A stretch of DNA of 64,000 bases from Spirochaeta africana DSM 8902 (lineage in GTDB: Bacteria; Spirochaetota; Spirochaetia; DSM-27196; DSM-8902). The notes below the pieces were generated by a model. The model had not been told where the DNA came from, did no database searches, and was given only the letters and a program-made list of their open reading frames with translations. The DNA is taken from the NCBI RefSeq assembly GCF_000242595.2, contig NC_017098.1, forward strand, positions 2,108,001 to 2,172,000. Direction: 5' to 3'. Positions 9,544-30,993 of the stretch are shown here, piece after piece. A program made the position numbers and the translations under genes. Within the stretch, counting starts at the first letter, position 1. Every line of letters begins with the position of its first letter.

Positions 9544-10101
9544 CTATCGATTACTGACCAAGGGGATATTGTGCCAATCAAACGCAAGCCACCGACTCTC
9601 ATCATATCGCTCGGCGAACGTACGGGCAACGGCACTCTGTCCGTAACTTCGGTAACGGGTAGAATTCGGTGTGCTCTCCCAGACCAGAATACCAATATTG
9701 TGCACACCTGGCTGGTCGGTGATGGTAAAGTTATAGCGTGGAACGTCAAATATTTCACGCCAGGCGCCGCTTTCGGTCTCGTCACGGTAGCGCACAACAA
9801 TAAAGGTATACTCACCCGGTTGGGCATTCTCCAAATATACATATCCATGCACCGGGACAGTTTCCAGCTGCAGGATCTCGCCTGAATCGTTATGGCGAAC
9901 CTCAACCTCAAAATTCGAGCGCCGGGTACCATTCACATTAATTCCATGCACCACTGGCCAATCAGAAAATTCAGCCTCAACCCTTCCCAGCAGCAGGATT
10001 TCCGATTCCTGCTCCGGCTCATACCGAAAGGTTGAAGCACAGCTGGCCAGAGCCATGACAAGCACCAACAACATAAATTTGGCAGACAAACCACTATTCA
10101 T
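9544..10101 (-). CDS. Lipoprotein of unknown function
   Basis: 185 residues from ATG 10101. The signal peptide ends in lipobox LASC (Cys21). The mature part looks like one beta-sandwich domain: NFEVEVRHNDSGEILQ and GYVYLENAQPGEYTFIVVRY resemble carboxypeptidase-regulatory or surface adhesion folds, but no named family is recognised. GGAGGA stands 4 bases before the ATG. An alternative TTG lies 12 bases further upstream. Its promoter at 10131-10159 is divergent from the PilZ gene promoter. The insertion sequence begins right after its stop codon, so the gene itself is intact, but any former read-through to carB is interrupted. Confidence 0.75.
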   Translation of the reverse strand: MNSGLSAKFMLLVLVMALASCASTFRYEPEQESEILLLGRVEAEFSDWPVVHGINVNGTRRSNFEVEVRHNDSGEILQLETVPVHGYVYLENAQPGEYTFIVVRYRDETESGAWREIFDVPRYNFTITDQPGVHNIGILVWESTPNSTRYRSYGQSAVARTFAERYDESRWLAFDWHNIPLVSNR

Positions 10102-10130
10102 ACATTCCTCCAACAGATGTTTGAAAATTC

Positions 10131-10159
10131 AGTATAGAGCCTTCTCACCATGCTGTAAA
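10131..10159 (-). promoter_or_regulatory. Promoter of the lipoprotein gene
   Basis: Minus strand: -35 TTTACA (10154-10159), 17 bases, -10 TATACT (10131-10136). It leaves a leader of about 23 bases carrying GGAGGA. Confidence 0.6.
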
Positions 10160-10177
10160 TCTGTGTGGATTATTCCA

Positions 10178-10206
10178 TTGGCATCTATCGATTTACGCGC
10201 TACAAT
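10178..10206 (+). promoter_or_regulatory. Promoter of the PilZ gene, leaderless type
   Basis: -35 TTGGCA (10178-10183), a 17-base spacer, -10 TACAAT (10201-10206), then 7 bases to ATG 10214. No Shine-Dalgarno is present. Confidence 0.65.
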
Positions 10207-10213
10207 GCGTGCA

Positions 10214-10975
10214 ATGGAGCGAATAGAGTCACGCCGTGTGTTTTTTCTGTACCCGCACTCGGTTTTCCAGGAACACTTGCTGGATGTACTGGTTCAGGCA
10301 GAGTTTGAGGTAGCAGTGGTTCGTGACCACAGCCGCATTCCCGCATTACTGGCCCGTTTTCCGGGTTCCATCCTGTTCATAAATATCGAGCAGCAGCTTG
10401 CGAATGGCGAAACATGGGAGGAATTTGTTCGCAGCCTGCGTGAACGATCAGAGCTCCAGTCAATCCGGATCGGAATTCTCGCCTACAACCCCGATCCCGA
10501 GCGTTCCAAGCATTTCATTGCGGATCTCGGAGTGGAATGTGGTTTTATAACGCTCAAGCTGGGAATAAAGCAGAGTGCCGCCATCCTGCTCAAATCACTG
10601 GCGGTAAACGAGGCCCGAGGGCGGCGGAAATATGTCCGTGCGACCTGCCCCCCGGAGAAGGCCCGAATCAACATTCGCCGTCTTGGCAGCACCACCGAAG
10701 GGCATATCAGGGACATCTCCAGTGCCGGATTTGCTGCTCAGCTGGACTCAACCGTAGAAAAAAACGAGCTGTGCGATGATATCCAGCTGAATCTCTGGGG
10801 GTCACGTCTTACCGTAGGTGCCCGCATGTACGGCACCCGCAAGCTGGAAACCGGACAGCTACTGCATATCTTTATGTTTGAACCTGAGCTCTACGGACAA
10901 ACCCGCTACAAGGTTCATCAGTTTATAAAGCGCGTTATACAGGCCGAGGTCGACGAAATTGTACAGACAAAATAA
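10214..10975 (+). CDS. PilZ-domain protein, probable c-di-GMP effector
   Basis: 253 residues from ATG 10214. The N-terminal half (about residues 5-130) has alternating strands and helices like a receiver-type fold, without a clear phospho-acceptor site. The C-terminal half is a PilZ domain carrying both c-di-GMP-binding motifs, RKYVR (RxxxR) and DISSAGF (DxSxxG). Such proteins bind c-di-GMP and act on motility or envelope processes in the cytoplasm. An ATG at 10205 overlaps the -10 box and is less likely. KDPG aldolase follows 27 bases later and may be co-transcribed. Confidence 0.85.
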   Translation: MERIESRRVFFLYPHSVFQEHLLDVLVQAEFEVAVVRDHSRIPALLARFPGSILFINIEQQLANGETWEEFVRSLRERSELQSIRIGILAYNPDPERSKHFIADLGVECGFITLKLGIKQSAAILLKSLAVNEARGRRKYVRATCPPEKARINIRRLGSTTEGHIRDISSAGFAAQLDSTVEKNELCDDIQLNLWGSRLTVGARMYGTRKLETGQLLHIFMFEPELYGQTRYKVHQFIKRVIQAEVDEIVQTK

Positions 10976-26014: not shown

Positions 26015-26410
26015 TTACAGCATTCCGAGTTTGCGCAGCTCCTCGGCAATCTTTTCGGCCTTGATGGGCTTTACCAGATACCCGGTAGCCTCACCATCAT
26101 AATATGCCTTGACTACGGTACGCGGATCCTCGAGTGCGGTTGTCATGATTACCTTTACCTCTTTACCCGGGGCAATACCCAGTTCCTTTTCGTGGGCCCG
26201 AATCTCGGTCAGGGCCTCAAGGCCGTCTTTTTCCGGCATCATGATATCCAGAAAAATCACATCATAGGGCTTCTGTTCCTGCCAGGCCAACTGGAATGCC
26301 TCCACTGCCTCGCTGCCATTCACTGCCACATTGGCAGCGCCATACCGGCGGCTGATCGCCTCCAGCAGCCGTCGACTGCCCAGATCATCCTCTACTATCA
26401 GAAACCTCAT
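26015..26410 (-). CDS. cheY: CheY-like response regulator
   Basis: 131 residues, a single receiver. Acidic pair EDD (residues 7-9), phospho-Asp in VIFLDIMMP, Thr in VIMTTALED, Lys in YLVKPI. The insertion KELGIAPGKEVKV before strand 4 is typical of stand-alone regulators of spirochaetes and delta-proteobacteria. GGAGGAAGA precedes ATG 26410. It lies 46 bases after cheB and before the receiver-PAS kinase, so it could be partner to either CheA or that kinase. Confidence 0.9.
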   Translation of the reverse strand: MRFLIVEDDLGSRRLLEAISRRYGAANVAVNGSEAVEAFQLAWQEQKPYDVIFLDIMMPEKDGLEALTEIRAHEKELGIAPGKEVKVIMTTALEDPRTVVKAYYDGEATGYLVKPIKAEKIAEELRKLGML

Positions 26411-26456: not shown

Positions 26457-27617
26457 TTATTTTTCCGCACTGCGAACACCCGAAGCCTGCAGAACCTCCG
26501 CCGCAATCTTCTCCAGCGGCAGTTGCACGTCGACCGCACCGATTTTAAATGCCTCATGCGGCATGCCGTAGACGACACAGGTGCTTTCGTCCTGGCCGAT
26601 GGTATATGCCCCGGTTTGCTTGAGTTCAAGCATCCCCCGGGCACCGTCATCGCCCATACCGGTCAGTATAACCGCAACCGCATTCTTCCCGGCGTACCGG
26701 GCAGCCGAGCGAAACAGTACATCCACCGAGGGTCGATGCCTGCTGACCAGCGGTCCCTCACGTACCTCTACATAGTAGCGGGCGCCGGAACGCTTCACCA
26801 GGGTATGCTTGTTGCCTGGGGCAATCAGTGCACGTCCGCGGATAATGGTGTCATTATGCTCAGCCTCTTTTACCGAGATACGGCATAATCCATCCAGGCG
26901 TTTGGCAAAGGCCGCGGTAAACTTTTCGGGCATATGCTGGACGATCACGATCCCCGGGGCATCAGGCGGCAGCTCCTCCAGAAACACCCGCAAGGCCTCG
27001 GTGCCGCCGGTAGAGGCGCCAATAACCGCAATCCGTTCTGTTGTCTCGATAACATGGGTGGATTTCGGCAGAGAAAGGATGGCATCTGCGGTCAGTTTTG
27101 GCTGGGTACCGAACGGCGCTGCCCTGCGGGCCGGGGCAGACTCAGCAGCGACTGCCGGATCTGCGGTGCGCGGCTTCCGGGGTGATGGTGCCACCGAGAC
27201 CGAACGCAGCTTGGAAAGCCGGGCCGAGGCAGCCGCCTTTACCACATCGCTTATCTGAGTGCTGGACTCAAGCAGGAACTGTTTGGTGCCAATCTTGGGC
27301 TTCTCTATAATATCAACAGCGCCGTATTCGAGCGCCTTGAGCGCATTTCCGGAACCATCCTCGGCCTTGCTGGAGCAGATAACTACCGGCAGGGGATGCT
27401 GGGCCATCAATTTCCGTAAAAAGGTCAGCCCATCCATGCGCGGCATCTCGATATCCAGGGTGATCACATCCGGCAGCAGTGTCTGCAGCTTGCGGGCGGC
27501 GATATACGGGTCGGCTGCTGTTCCTATCACCTCTATATCGGGATCATCGGACAGGACCTGCTGGAGGGTTTCCCGTACCACAGCTGAATCATCGATTATC
27601 ATCACCTTGATGGCCAT
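26457..27617 (-). CDS. cheB: Chemotaxis protein-glutamate methylesterase CheB
   Basis: 386 residues. An N-terminal receiver (DDSAVVRE, phospho-Asp in [13 protein letters not shown]) is linked by an Ala/Pro-rich stretch to the methylesterase domain. Its Ser-His-Asp triad is visible: GASTGG, QHMPEKF and [11 protein letters not shown]. It removes methyl groups from chemoreceptors and so sets adaptation. It follows cheR by 6 bases in the STAS-cheA-cheR-cheB operon. Confidence 0.96.
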
Positions 27618-27622
27618 ATACC

Positions 27623-28495
27623 CTACTCCTTTCGATACACCGTTGGTGCTACCGTTCTGAACGGCACATCCATCCCCGCCAGGGTCTCTGAATGGCCAAG
27701 GAACAGATATCCGCCGGGAGCAAGCTGTGCATGCAGCTTGTGCATCAGCTGCACCTGACGTTCCCGGTCAAAGTAGATAATTACGTTGCGACAAAAGATT
27801 ATCTGAAATGTATCCCGGATGCCAAAATCGCCGTCCATCAGATTTACCCGATGAAACTGTACCCGGGAGCGCAGTTCAGGTCGAATCTTGACCAGTCCGG
27901 CAGTGCGGTCCTTGCTGCGCAGCAGATACCGTTTGCGCAGCGATTCGGGAACCGGCTCAATGCGCTCAGCCGGATAGACTGCAGCCCGACAACGCTCCAG
28001 CATGCGGGTGGAGATATCTGTTCCGAGAATACGGTAGGTATAGGGAGAATTATTCCGGGCAAACTCCTCAAGCGTCATCGCCAGGGAATATACCTCTTCG
28101 CCGCTGGAACTTGCACATGACCAGACCTTGAGCATGTTGTCCCGCCCCCATTCATCGATGCGCAACCGCTCGGGGAGCAGAATGCTGGAAAGATACCGGA
28201 AGTGCTCATTTTCCCGGAAGAAATCGGTTTTATTGGTGGTAACGGCATCTATCATGTGTACCAGCTCTGTCTGCGCACTGGCAGGATCGAACACAATCTC
28301 CAGATACTCACCGAATGACCCGATCCCCAGGACACGCAGCCGTTTCAACAAACGTGACTCCAGCATTACCCGCTTTGCAGGCGGCATTTTGATGCCGATC
28401 TGCCCCTCGATGTATTTCTGGAATACCTGAAACTCTTTTTCAGCGAGTCGCGGCGGGCCTCCGGCTGTTGTTCGCTCAATATCATTATGTGTCAC
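27623..28495 (-). CDS. cheR: Chemotaxis methyltransferase CheR
   Basis: 290 residues. It methylates receptor glutamates with S-adenosylmethionine. N-terminal helical domain with [16 protein letters not shown]-binding motif [33 protein letters not shown]. The start is taken as GTG 28495, inside the end of cheA (11-base overlap), preceded by AGGAAGGGAAG; the longer frame upstream has no site and would overlap cheA much more. Confidence 0.95.
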
Positions 28496-30665
28496 GCAGC
28501 TTCCCTTCCTGATGCTCAATCTCGGCTGACAACCGCTGTATATCAAGTACCAGCGCGACAGATCCGTCACCCAGTATGGTCGCACCGCTTATGCCGGGTA
28601 TATCCCGGTACAGCAGACCCAGATTTTTCATGACGGTCTGGTGGCTGCCAACAACCTGATCCACCACCAGGCCAATCTGCCCGGCACGGTGCTTGACTAC
28701 TACCACCTGCTGCAGGGCCGGAGCCGGATTGGCCACGCCGAAATAGTGCCGCAGCTGCACCACCGACAACAATGAACCGCGATTTGCCATAACCTGTTGT
28801 CCGGCATCTGATTTTCGGGATCGATCAGCATCTTCCTCGCGGTATTCAAGGCACTCATCAACTGCCGAAAGCGGAATTACATAGTGATCGTTGCCCACCC
28901 GCGTCAACAATCCGTCTATAATGGCAAGGGTAAGCGGGAGTACCAGGGTGACCCGTGTCCCGCCACTATCGCTGTCTCCGATATCAAAAGATCCACCCAG
29001 CTGCTCTACCTGCTGACGTACGACATCCATCCCGACACCGCGTCCCGATAGTTCGGTAACCTCAGCGGCGGTCGAAAACCCCGGCAGGGTCAGCAATCCG
29101 GCAATATCGGCATCGCTGAGTCGGGATCCTGGCGCTACCAGTTCCCGGTCGATAGCCTTGGCCAGAATCGCCTCGCGATCCAGTCCCTTGCCGTCATCGG
29201 TTACCGAAATGATCACATTGGCACCAGCATGTTCGGCCGACAGGGTAACGGTCCCCTCCGATGGTTTCCCGCTGGCAGCTCGCTGAGCTGGCTGTTCGAT
29301 ACCATGATCAACGGCATTGCGGATTATGTGCATCAACGGATCGGTAAGCTTTTCGAGTACGGTTTTATCGAGCTCGGTATCGCCGCCGACCGTGACCAGA
29401 TCAACCTCTTTATCCAGCTGCCGACAGAGATCCCTGACCAGTCGCCGGAACTTGGCGTAGGCAGCGCCGATCGGGAGCATCCGTACATTCAAGGTACTGT
29501 CACGCAGCTCGGTGGTAATTCTCTGGAGATTTTCCGATAAACTGACAAGGGTTGGGTGCTCCAGCTGCAGTGCGGTCTGCTGCAAGCGGGACTGCAGGGT
29601 GACCAACTCGCCTACCAGATCAACCAGGACATCGAGTTTGTCCGAGGACACCCGGACACTCTGCTGGGCAGAATCGTCCTGAAGCTTTTTCCGGCTGCGC
29701 CGGATATGCTGCTGTTCCTCCAGCGCAGACTGGATCTCATAGGCATCGACCCCCTGGGACTGCAGCACCTGCCCGAGTCGCAGCTGCGCGGCGACCGCCG
29801 CCTCTATCTCCTGCTGGGTAACCACCCCTCGCTCTATCAGGATTTGCCCGAGGCGTTTTGATGGTTCAAGCTCCTCGAACGACAGGTCATCTACCGGATC
29901 AATCTGCAGCTGGCAATCGCCCTGCACGAACAGAAACACATCCTCGATCTCTGTACGTGCCGCCGCCGTAGTCAGGATGATATCCCAGCGCAGATAACAG
30001 TCTTCCGGATCAAATTCTGCCAGAGCCGGCATCGACGATACATACGGCACACAGGTACAGTCCCCGAGCACATGCAGTTCCTTCAGCAGAGCCAGGGGAT
30101 TGGTGCCGTTGCGGAACAACCCCCGCTCTGGTACAAAGCGTATACGGTAGGTGATCAGGGGTCGCTCGTGCACCTCCCCCGGTTTCCCTCCCGTTGCCGA
30201 CCCGTTCGCCCCACGGCCGGCCTGAACGCCGGAGGCGCCCCCGGCAGCAGCAGCCGGGGATACCGCCGAGACTCCCCGATCCGGATCGTTGCCGGAAACC
30301 CCGCGAACCAGGTCGATTATGCGGGCGGACGTATCCTGAAGCGACTGTGGTGGTGGATCGGGCGTCTCAAGCAGAACACTGATGTGATCGCGGGACTGCA
30401 GCAGGATATCGATCAGTTCGGGGACAACCTGCATCTTTCCCTGGCGTATCCGGTCCATAAAGGTTTCAAGCTCATGAGTGAAATGCGAGATATGCTGATA
30501 ACCGAACATCGCACCGGAGCCCTTGATGGTGTGCATAACCCGGAACACCGAGGCTATCGAGGTTGTGTCGGCCGCATCGTTCTCCAGATCCAGCAGAGTC
30601 GACTCGAGCGTCTGTAACAGCTCAAGCGCCTCCGCCTTGAAGGTCTCCCGGAACTTATCCTGCAT
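28485..30665 (-). CDS. cheA: Chemotaxis histidine kinase CheA with an MshEN-like insert
   Basis: 726 residues. P1/Hpt with His45 in VMHTIKGSG; a P2-like region about 168-260 after a Gly/Ala-rich linker; an unusual insert at 271-318; P3 dimerisation (about 337-400); P4 ATPase with N-box IIRNAVDHG, G1 DDGKGLD and G2 GRGVGMDVV; P5 CheW-like C terminus. The insert contains RLGQILIERGVV and TQQEIEAAVAAQ, a full match to the 24-residue MshEN c-di-GMP-binding motif, then a shortened second copy. It overlaps the STAS gene by 11 bases and cheR by 11. No cheW is seen in the window. Confidence 0.96.
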   Translation of the reverse strand: MQDKFRETFKAEALELLQTLESTLLDLENDAADTTSIASVFRVMHTIKGSGAMFGYQHISHFTHELETFMDRIRQGKMQVVPELIDILLQSRDHISVLLETPDPPPQSLQDTSARIIDLVRGVSGNDPDRGVSAVSPAAAAGGASGVQAGRGANGSATGGKPGEVHERPLITYRIRFVPERGLFRNGTNPLALLKELHVLGDCTCVPYVSSMPALAEFDPEDCYLRWDIILTTAAARTEIEDVFLFVQGDCQLQIDPVDDLSFEELEPSKRLGQILIERGVVTQQEIEAAVAAQLRLGQVLQSQGVDAYEIQSALEEQQHIRRSRKKLQDDSAQQSVRVSSDKLDVLVDLVGELVTLQSRLQQTALQLEHPTLVSLSENLQRITTELRDSTLNVRMLPIGAAYAKFRRLVRDLCRQLDKEVDLVTVGGDTELDKTVLEKLTDPLMHIIRNAVDHGIEQPAQRAASGKPSEGTVTLSAEHAGANVIISVTDDGKGLDREAILAKAIDRELVAPGSRLSDADIAGLLTLPGFSTAAEVTELSGRGVGMDVVRQQVEQLGGSFDIGDSDSGGTRVTLVLPLTLAIIDGLLTRVGNDHYVIPLSAVDECLEYREEDADRSRKSDAGQQVMANRGSLLSVVQLRHYFGVANPAPALQQVVVVKHRAGQIGLVVDQVVGSHQTVMKNLGLLYRDIPGISGATILGDGSVALVLDIQRLSAEIEHQEGKLRDT

Positions 30666-30993
30666 ACTTACCGCCTACTGTGGATAAAAGGTATGATCGC
30701 AGCTGCTGCCCTTCGGATGGGACCTCCCGACAAAAACCGGCCGAAAGCAGAGCTATCTCCAGCGGCGCGGTCACCGCCCCGGAAAACTCAACCTGCAGAT
30801 TGTGCTGTCTGCCCCACTGCAGTACGGCAGCAATCAGCTGCAGCCCGGCAGCGTCGACCGTGTCGACCTCCCCGATCTGCAGTATAATGATGTGCTGTTT
30901 CTTCGGATTGGCCGGCAATTCCTGCCATACCCGTGAGACATGCTCGATCGTAAGATCCTTCGGAAGATTCACTACCTTCATGGTTTTGCTCAT
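30655..30993 (-). CDS. STAS-domain protein
   Basis: 112 residues, one STAS domain, the fold of anti-sigma-factor antagonists. Seen: IILQIGEVDTVDAAGLQLIAAVL, where the usual phospho-Ser position before AGLQ is Asp-Ala (VDAAG), so regulation by phosphorylation at that site is unlikely. It is the first gene of the cheA operon; cheA begins inside its last codons. It may act as an adaptor in the chemotaxis complex; that is inferred from position only. ATG 30993 with GTGAGG upstream. Confidence 0.8.
   Translation of the reverse strand: MSKTMKVVNLPKDLTIEHVSRVWQELPANPKKQHIIILQIGEVDTVDAAGLQLIAAVLQWGRQHNLQVEFSGAVTAPLEIALLSAGFCREVPSEGQQLRSYLLSTVGGKYAG

Follow-up and report, generated by a model that had tools for sequence, protein, structure and literature searches.

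c-di-GMP and chemotaxis usually meet through separate adaptors, such as MapZ acting on a CheR, PilZ-bearing receptors and the CheY-like Cle proteins. A CheA kinase of Spirochaeta africana DSM 8902 raises the question of whether c-di-GMP can be sensed within the kinase itself. Its gene lies in a stretch of 64,000 nucleotides (NC_017098.1, positions 2,108,001 to 2,172,000), referred to here as the window, and coordinates below count from the first letter of this stretch. An earlier interpretation made from the letters of the DNA alone, referred to here as the sequence-only reading, had proposed that this CheA carries an MshEN-like insert. Residues 271-318 are considered here to be a compact c-di-GMP receptor (MshEN, the N-subdomain of GSPII) that sits in the chain of an accessory CheA, between P2 and P3, and tunes the kinase, with a probability of about 0.62. 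This reading draws on observed sequence, homology and conservation, on a predicted fold, and on binding rules taken from PilF and MshE.

The cheA cluster and the position of the insert

The genes around cheA form a compact cluster of STAS, cheA, cheR, cheB, receiver and REC-PAS kinase, including:

30655..30993, (-) strand, STAS-domain protein, first gene of the cluster, overlapping the start of cheA (Pfam STAS_2, 28.7 bits, just under cut-off)
28485..30665, (-) strand, CheA, 726 aa (Pfam Hpt, H-kinase_dim, HATPase_c and CheW, all above cut-off)
27623..28585, (-) strand, CheR methyltransferase, overlapping the end of cheA (Pfam CheR, 3e-58)
26457..27617, (-) strand, CheB methylesterase (Pfam CheB_methylest, 2e-66)
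26015..26410, (-) strand, CheY-like single-domain receiver (Pfam Response_reg, 2e-20)

The features of the CheA class are present, namely Hpt, dimerisation, HATPase and CheW-like domains, the phospho-acceptor His45 of P1 (in HTIKGSG) and the N and G boxes of P4, the last two read as intact from the translation. The domains follow the order P1, P2, MshEN insert, P3, P4 kinase and P5, and the insert is flanked by:

29880..30155, (-) strand, P2-like ferredoxin-fold domain, CheA residues 171-262, upstream of the insert (AlphaFold2 model)
29664..29711, (-) strand, basic helix towards P3, CheA residues 319-334 (AlphaFold2; continuation of the last MshEN helix)
29481..29663, (-) strand, P3 dimerisation domain, CheA residues about 335-395 (Pfam H-kinase_dim)

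The location between P2 and P3 given by the sequence-only reading is upheld by Pfam, by AlphaFold2 and by structure matches of both flanks. VIA-align matched residues 171-262 to the P2 domain of T. maritima CheA (1u0s, Z 5.7) among other ferredoxin folds, and matched P3 to residues 294-354 of 1b3q (Z 7.8, rmsd 1.9). This P3 is of ordinary length, not the extended P3 of the spirochaete F2 CheA. Within the basic helix just after motif II (29664-29711), the pattern [EQ]H[VIA]xR[ST]R is strongly conserved across the clade of the window CheA.

The tandem motif and its family

The MshEN consensus used here comprises two tandem copies of (R/K/L)LGxx[LVI][LVI]xxG[LVI][LVI]xxxxLxxxLxxQ. The corresponding parts of CheA are:

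29784..29855, (-) strand, MshEN motif I, CheA residues 271-294, RLGQILIERGVVTQQEIEAAVAAQ (strict consensus, NCBIfam NF053729, kept in relatives)
29781..29783, (-) strand, linker Leu295, one residue compared with the canonical five (alignments with relatives and PilB domains)
29712..29780, (-) strand, MshEN motif II, CheA residues 296-318, 23 residues, RLGQVLQSQGVDAYEIQSALEEQ (alignment to PilF GSPII-B)

Translation and a pattern scan bear out, exactly to the base, the earlier claim that residues 271-294 fit the 24-residue MshEN motif, and agreement with the consensus is exact when Ile17 and Val21 are counted as aliphatic residues. The translation likewise agrees with the earlier description of a second copy (296-318) that is one residue short and follows a one-residue linker; the shortening lies after Gly305 and leaves the contact positions intact. 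The strict 24-residue pattern occurs once in the approximately 70,000 amino acids of window reading frames, namely in CheA, and its expected chance count in one protein of CheA composition is about 1e-6.

The expectation that an MshEN profile would find the insert held for NF053729, for hhalign and for a profile search of the PDB, and failed for Pfam PF05157. NCBIfam NF053729 (c-di-GMP motif, MshE-related) aligns over its full model, 1-53 of 53, to CheA 271-318 with an E value of 3.7e-5. Its scores of 23.4 bits in whole CheA and 30.2 bits for the fragment are both under the curated cut-off of 38, which is a naming threshold and not a biological feature. The orthologue in genome G008 reaches 39.7 bits, and several other orthologues pass with neighbouring matches. 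A profile of 32 orthologous spirochaete CheA inserts (alignment A1), searched against all PDB sequences, returned PilF, PilB and MshE first, with E values from 1e-24 to 1e-8. When CheA inserts were compared with true PilB MshEN domains in hhalign, the probability was 99.4, the E value 1.3e-21 and the identity 40%, with one gap in the linker (four residues) and another in motif II (one residue). The reference set for this comparison consisted of PilB-type ATPases with five-residue linkers from other classes, because the spirochaete GspE/PilB-like proteins that PF05157 matches yielded no tandem motifs when scanned for them.

PF05157 had no match in the window CheA in scans of the protein, the genome and 148 genomes of the class. 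The N-subdomains of 12 PilB-type MshEN domains go unmatched as well, and PF05157 is thus uninformative on this half of the domain; the C-terminal MshEN subdomain is absent from CheA. The insert almost certainly has MshEN fold and ancestry. As a separate matter of database naming, PF05157, though called MshEN, misses the motif-bearing half, and DUF4388 weakly matches that half in both CheA and PilB. An identity as DUF4388 (PF14332) or FumaraseC_C was considered and rejected, since these matches are weak and common to PilB-type MshEN domains too.

Predicted fold

Folding as an unrelated part of P2 or P3, which the sequence-only reading had allowed for, is not what structure prediction gives; the insert is modelled as an MshEN-type four-helix bundle. 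A Foldseek search with a model of CheA 171-415 returned PII-like and ferredoxin folds only, with P2 dominating the ranks, and the insert was then modelled alone. The AlphaFold2 model of the insert, built from CheA sequences only, has four helices and a pLDDT of 86.7, and ranks 1-13 of its Foldseek search against the PDB are all MshEN/GSPII structures. It superposes on c-di-GMP-bound PilF-GSPII-B crystal structures at 0.8-1.1 A over 52-54 columns and on MshE at 1.4 A over 56 columns, and the apo PilF form is a poorer match than the c-di-GMP-bound form. With VIA-align the Z of the insert model is 8.5, at the edge of the range common to helical bundles, and unrelated rows are clearly lower.

In the model of CheA 171-415, P2, the insert and P3 (on 1b3q) are each recovered separately, the insert at 269-321 on PilF with an rmsd of 1.3 over 53 residues. 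The last MshEN helix is one continuous helix, 308-334, that ends just before P3. The fold is a prediction, and tight helical bundles can look alike; the rows other than MshEN are far weaker.

Relatives and linker length

The survey of homologues that the sequence-only reading had suggested found the tandem insert in related spirochaete CheAs, both in alignments and with NF053729, which matches all 44 related CheA inserts in alignment A3. The tandem is kept between P2 and P3 across spirochaete classes and other phyla. In CheAs of the window type throughout the class its linker has a single residue; a second CheA family has two and a third has four. CheAs of similar size from other spirochaete classes have five or close to five, and CheAs of other phyla have 4-8 or more. 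The linkers of related CheAs thus span 1-8 residues and more, and a one-residue linker does not alter the predicted fold; linker length appears to be variable within the MshEN family rather than required. Judging from the alignments, the one-residue linker looks like a derived shortening. Insert-bearing CheAs of other spirochaete classes, Proteobacteria, Nitrospirota and Acidobacteriota (L198-L208; L002, L041, L064, L069) share the P2-P3 site, whereas they differ from the window CheA in a linker of usually 4-8 residues and a motif II of 24 residues.

A paralogous CheA family has the same insert (L125 at G000:C1:2689567-2691639, with L110, L133-L137, L139, L145 and L149). In this group Gln24 of motif I is replaced by Arg or Lys in 9/10 members and Arg1 of motif II by Phe or Tyr in all ten, and none of the ten has a full motif fit. 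Going by these substitutions, its insert is probably folded but probably unable to bind c-di-GMP. The third tandem-bearing CheA of the genome (L126, G000:C1:179450-181165) has a four-residue linker and all contact residues; it has a Cache-domain chemoreceptor upstream and scores 44 bits with NF053729, above the cut-off. A longer CheA family of about 820-1030 aa (L111-L121, L124, L191, L193, L196) has a two-residue linker, and its motif I carries Pro, Ala, Thr or Glu in place of Arg. The tree places one CheA from a genome of ~1.2 Mb (L140, G064) within the insert-bearing CheAs, yet its P2-P3 linker is motif-free. This is an apparent loss of the insert motifs, perhaps in a Borrelia-like genome. 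Borrelia burgdorferi CheA1 resembles the window CheA in being an accessory CheA with an ordinary-length P3, and its P2-P3 linker of 73 residues has been described as extended (PMC10703414). L140, a possible Borrelia-like relative, is unlike the window CheA in its missing motifs.

Probable ability of the insert to bind c-di-GMP

The window CheA keeps Arg, Leu, Gly and Gln in both motifs. Across its clade, position 1 is Arg or Lys in both motifs in 21/21 members, and Gly3 and Gln24 are equally invariant (21/21 in both motifs). An automated count of full fits gave 17/21, which is too low, as motif II was misregistered by one in four proteins that end in EEQQ; the per-column table corrects this. 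The contact positions of the insert are more conserved than its remaining positions in this clade (permutation p 0.0025). The equivalent of MshE Leu29, which stacks on guanine 1, is Val291 in the window CheA and Ala in 12 of the 21 clade members, so affinity for c-di-GMP may be low. To our knowledge, no c-di-GMP-binding protein has a one-residue linker.

Mutagenesis of PilF defined what such a motif needs: both motifs require a Gln24 and a suitable first residue (Arg, or Lys or Leu), high affinity depends on Gly3, and exchanging Leu for Ile at positions 17 and 21 has a cost of only 2.4-fold (PMC12002112). PilF GSPII-B, in which motif II is also one residue short, binds c-di-GMP at 6 nM (PMC11731258), and the CheA motif shows this gap too when aligned, so the short motif should be no obstacle. 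According to Wang et al. 2016, isolated MshE 1-62 binds c-di-GMP without the C-terminal subdomain (PMC5013675). By analogy with these proteins, and because Gln24 and Arg/Lys1 are kept in the window clade and lost in the paralogue group, the CheA insert probably binds c-di-GMP.

The insert could also have retained the MshEN fold without useful affinity and act as a rigid spacer fixing the arrangement of P2 and P3. The paralogue group around L125 points this way, as it keeps the hydrophobic pattern in spite of its lost motif residues, and so does PilF GSPII-A, a well-folded MshEN-like domain that fails to bind (PMC12002112). The Val or Ala in the guanine-1 pocket and a linker four residues shorter than in the binders examined are also consistent with it. 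However, Gln24 and Arg/Lys1 lie outside the core in MshE; that they are kept in both motifs of all 21 clade members therefore suggests a ligand, and a mere spacer is considered unlikely. It is quite improbable that, instead of receiving a nucleotide, the insert docks a partner protein, be it a PilZ-type adaptor, CheW or the operon's STAS protein. The N-terminal domain of Xanthomonas citri PilB, which binds a PilZ protein, is among the structural matches (7lkm, 7lkn), and the STAS gene overlaps cheA; however, the X. citri PilB matches are weaker than those of c-di-GMP-bound PilF and MshE, and the positions that do not vary correspond to the nucleotide contacts of MshE. Chance resemblance in an ordinary helical P2-P3 linker, for which the lack of any domain at the insert in a single-sequence Pfam scan might speak, is ruled out by the concordant PDB profile search, hhalign, Foldseek and NF053729 results and by the retention of the tandem across classes and phyla.

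c-di-GMP in the genome and a possible link to swimming

The statement of the sequence-only reading that c-di-GMP signalling exists in this organism is well founded, as a whole-genome scan gave 27 GGDEF matches, which can supply c-di-GMP, and 7 PilZ matches. The PilZ protein of the window has intact motifs:

10055..10975, (+) strand, PilZ protein with RxxxR (RKYVR) and DxSxxG (DISSAG) (Pfam PilZ, 22.1 bits against a cut-off of 22.5)

This protein scores 24.2 bits in the whole-genome scan and is, from its motifs, likely a second c-di-GMP receptor, not linked to cheA.

The suggestion of a compact link from c-di-GMP to swimming fares less well. Three CheAs of the genome carry the tandem and at least one lacks it. 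The latter is an F2-like CheA of 806 residues (at about G000:C1:1887905-1890325) that lies beside a CheW-CheR fusion, a hallmark of the spirochaete F2 chemotaxis system (PMC7666581), and is therefore the probable chemotaxis kinase of the genome. An extended P3 characterises the spirochaete CheAs that have been connected with chemotaxis (PMC10703414). The window CheA has neither F2 mark, since its P3 is short and its neighbours are a separate CheR and CheB. It is thus taken as an accessory CheA, for which an accessory pathway is at least as likely as a role in swimming. Because the probable chemotaxis kinase lacks the insert and the P3 of the window CheA is short, a link to swimming is a possibility only.

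Proposed mechanism

Each motif would form a helix-turn-helix, and the two halves would pack as a four-helix bundle with one c-di-GMP lying across it. Arg271 and Arg296 would stack on the guanines, the backbones of Gly273 and Gly298 would bind their Hoogsteen edges, aliphatic side chains of opposite faces would sandwich them, and Gln294 and Gln318 would hold the ribose-phosphate. Binding may stiffen the bundle and draw it closed, the latter as in MshE and PilF. Through the last helix (308-334), which runs towards P3, this would shift the placement of P1-P2 with respect to the dimer and the partner's P4, and the outcome would be changed autophosphorylation or changed transfer to a response regulator. 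For E. coli CheA there is a proposal that the P2-P3 linker guides P1-P2 to the kinase domain of the partner (PMC6746300); given this and the helix leading to P3, trans-phosphorylation is the likeliest target. If c-di-GMP binds, regulation of kinase output is very likely to follow, in either direction.

A broader scheme can be offered tentatively. c-di-GMP input into CheA would be widespread, and in Spirochaetia a one-residue linker and a last helix joined to the P3 helix would make the domain a clamp on the P2-P3 joint that gates trans-phosphorylation, with one paralogue in the cell deaf and another able to bind.

Comparison with known systems

Vibrio cholerae MshE (5htl) shares with the CheA insert the tandem motifs, the four-helix bundle and the Arg/Leu/Gly/Gln contacts, at 36% identity, whereas it differs in its ATPase context, five-residue linker, 24-residue motif II and C-terminal subdomain. 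Thermus thermophilus PilF GSPII-B (8pdk, 8pfa) is the best structural match and has the same one-residue-short motif II, although its motifs start with Lys and Leu in place of Arg, its linker is four residues longer and it belongs to a traffic ATPase. The thought that a link between MshEN and CheA might be undescribed has to be given up, since Wang et al. 2016 listed CheA and CheX among MshEN partners (PMC5013675). These are the same two modules; the main text of that paper names the associations, not position, linker or binding (PMC5013675). The MshEN-CheA fusion is already known, then, and the compact linker is the special feature of the window CheA. No experimental work on a CheA with MshEN, or on direct binding of c-di-GMP to CheA, was found in the open-licence literature.

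A receptor module within the kinase would set the gain of the whole chemosensory pathway by the c-di-GMP level. As a fragment of 75 residues with four predicted contact residues, the insert is amenable to expression, which puts the question raised by the domain list of 2016 within reach of bench work. The negative result with PF05157 hides this class of receptor in databases. Many Spirochaetia genomes also contain short reading frames, 66-100 aa long, made up of little more than an MshEN match (e.g. G019:C223:4418-4573, G013:C284:6844-6999 and G044:C101:5114-5269), which are possible stand-alone c-di-GMP receptors.
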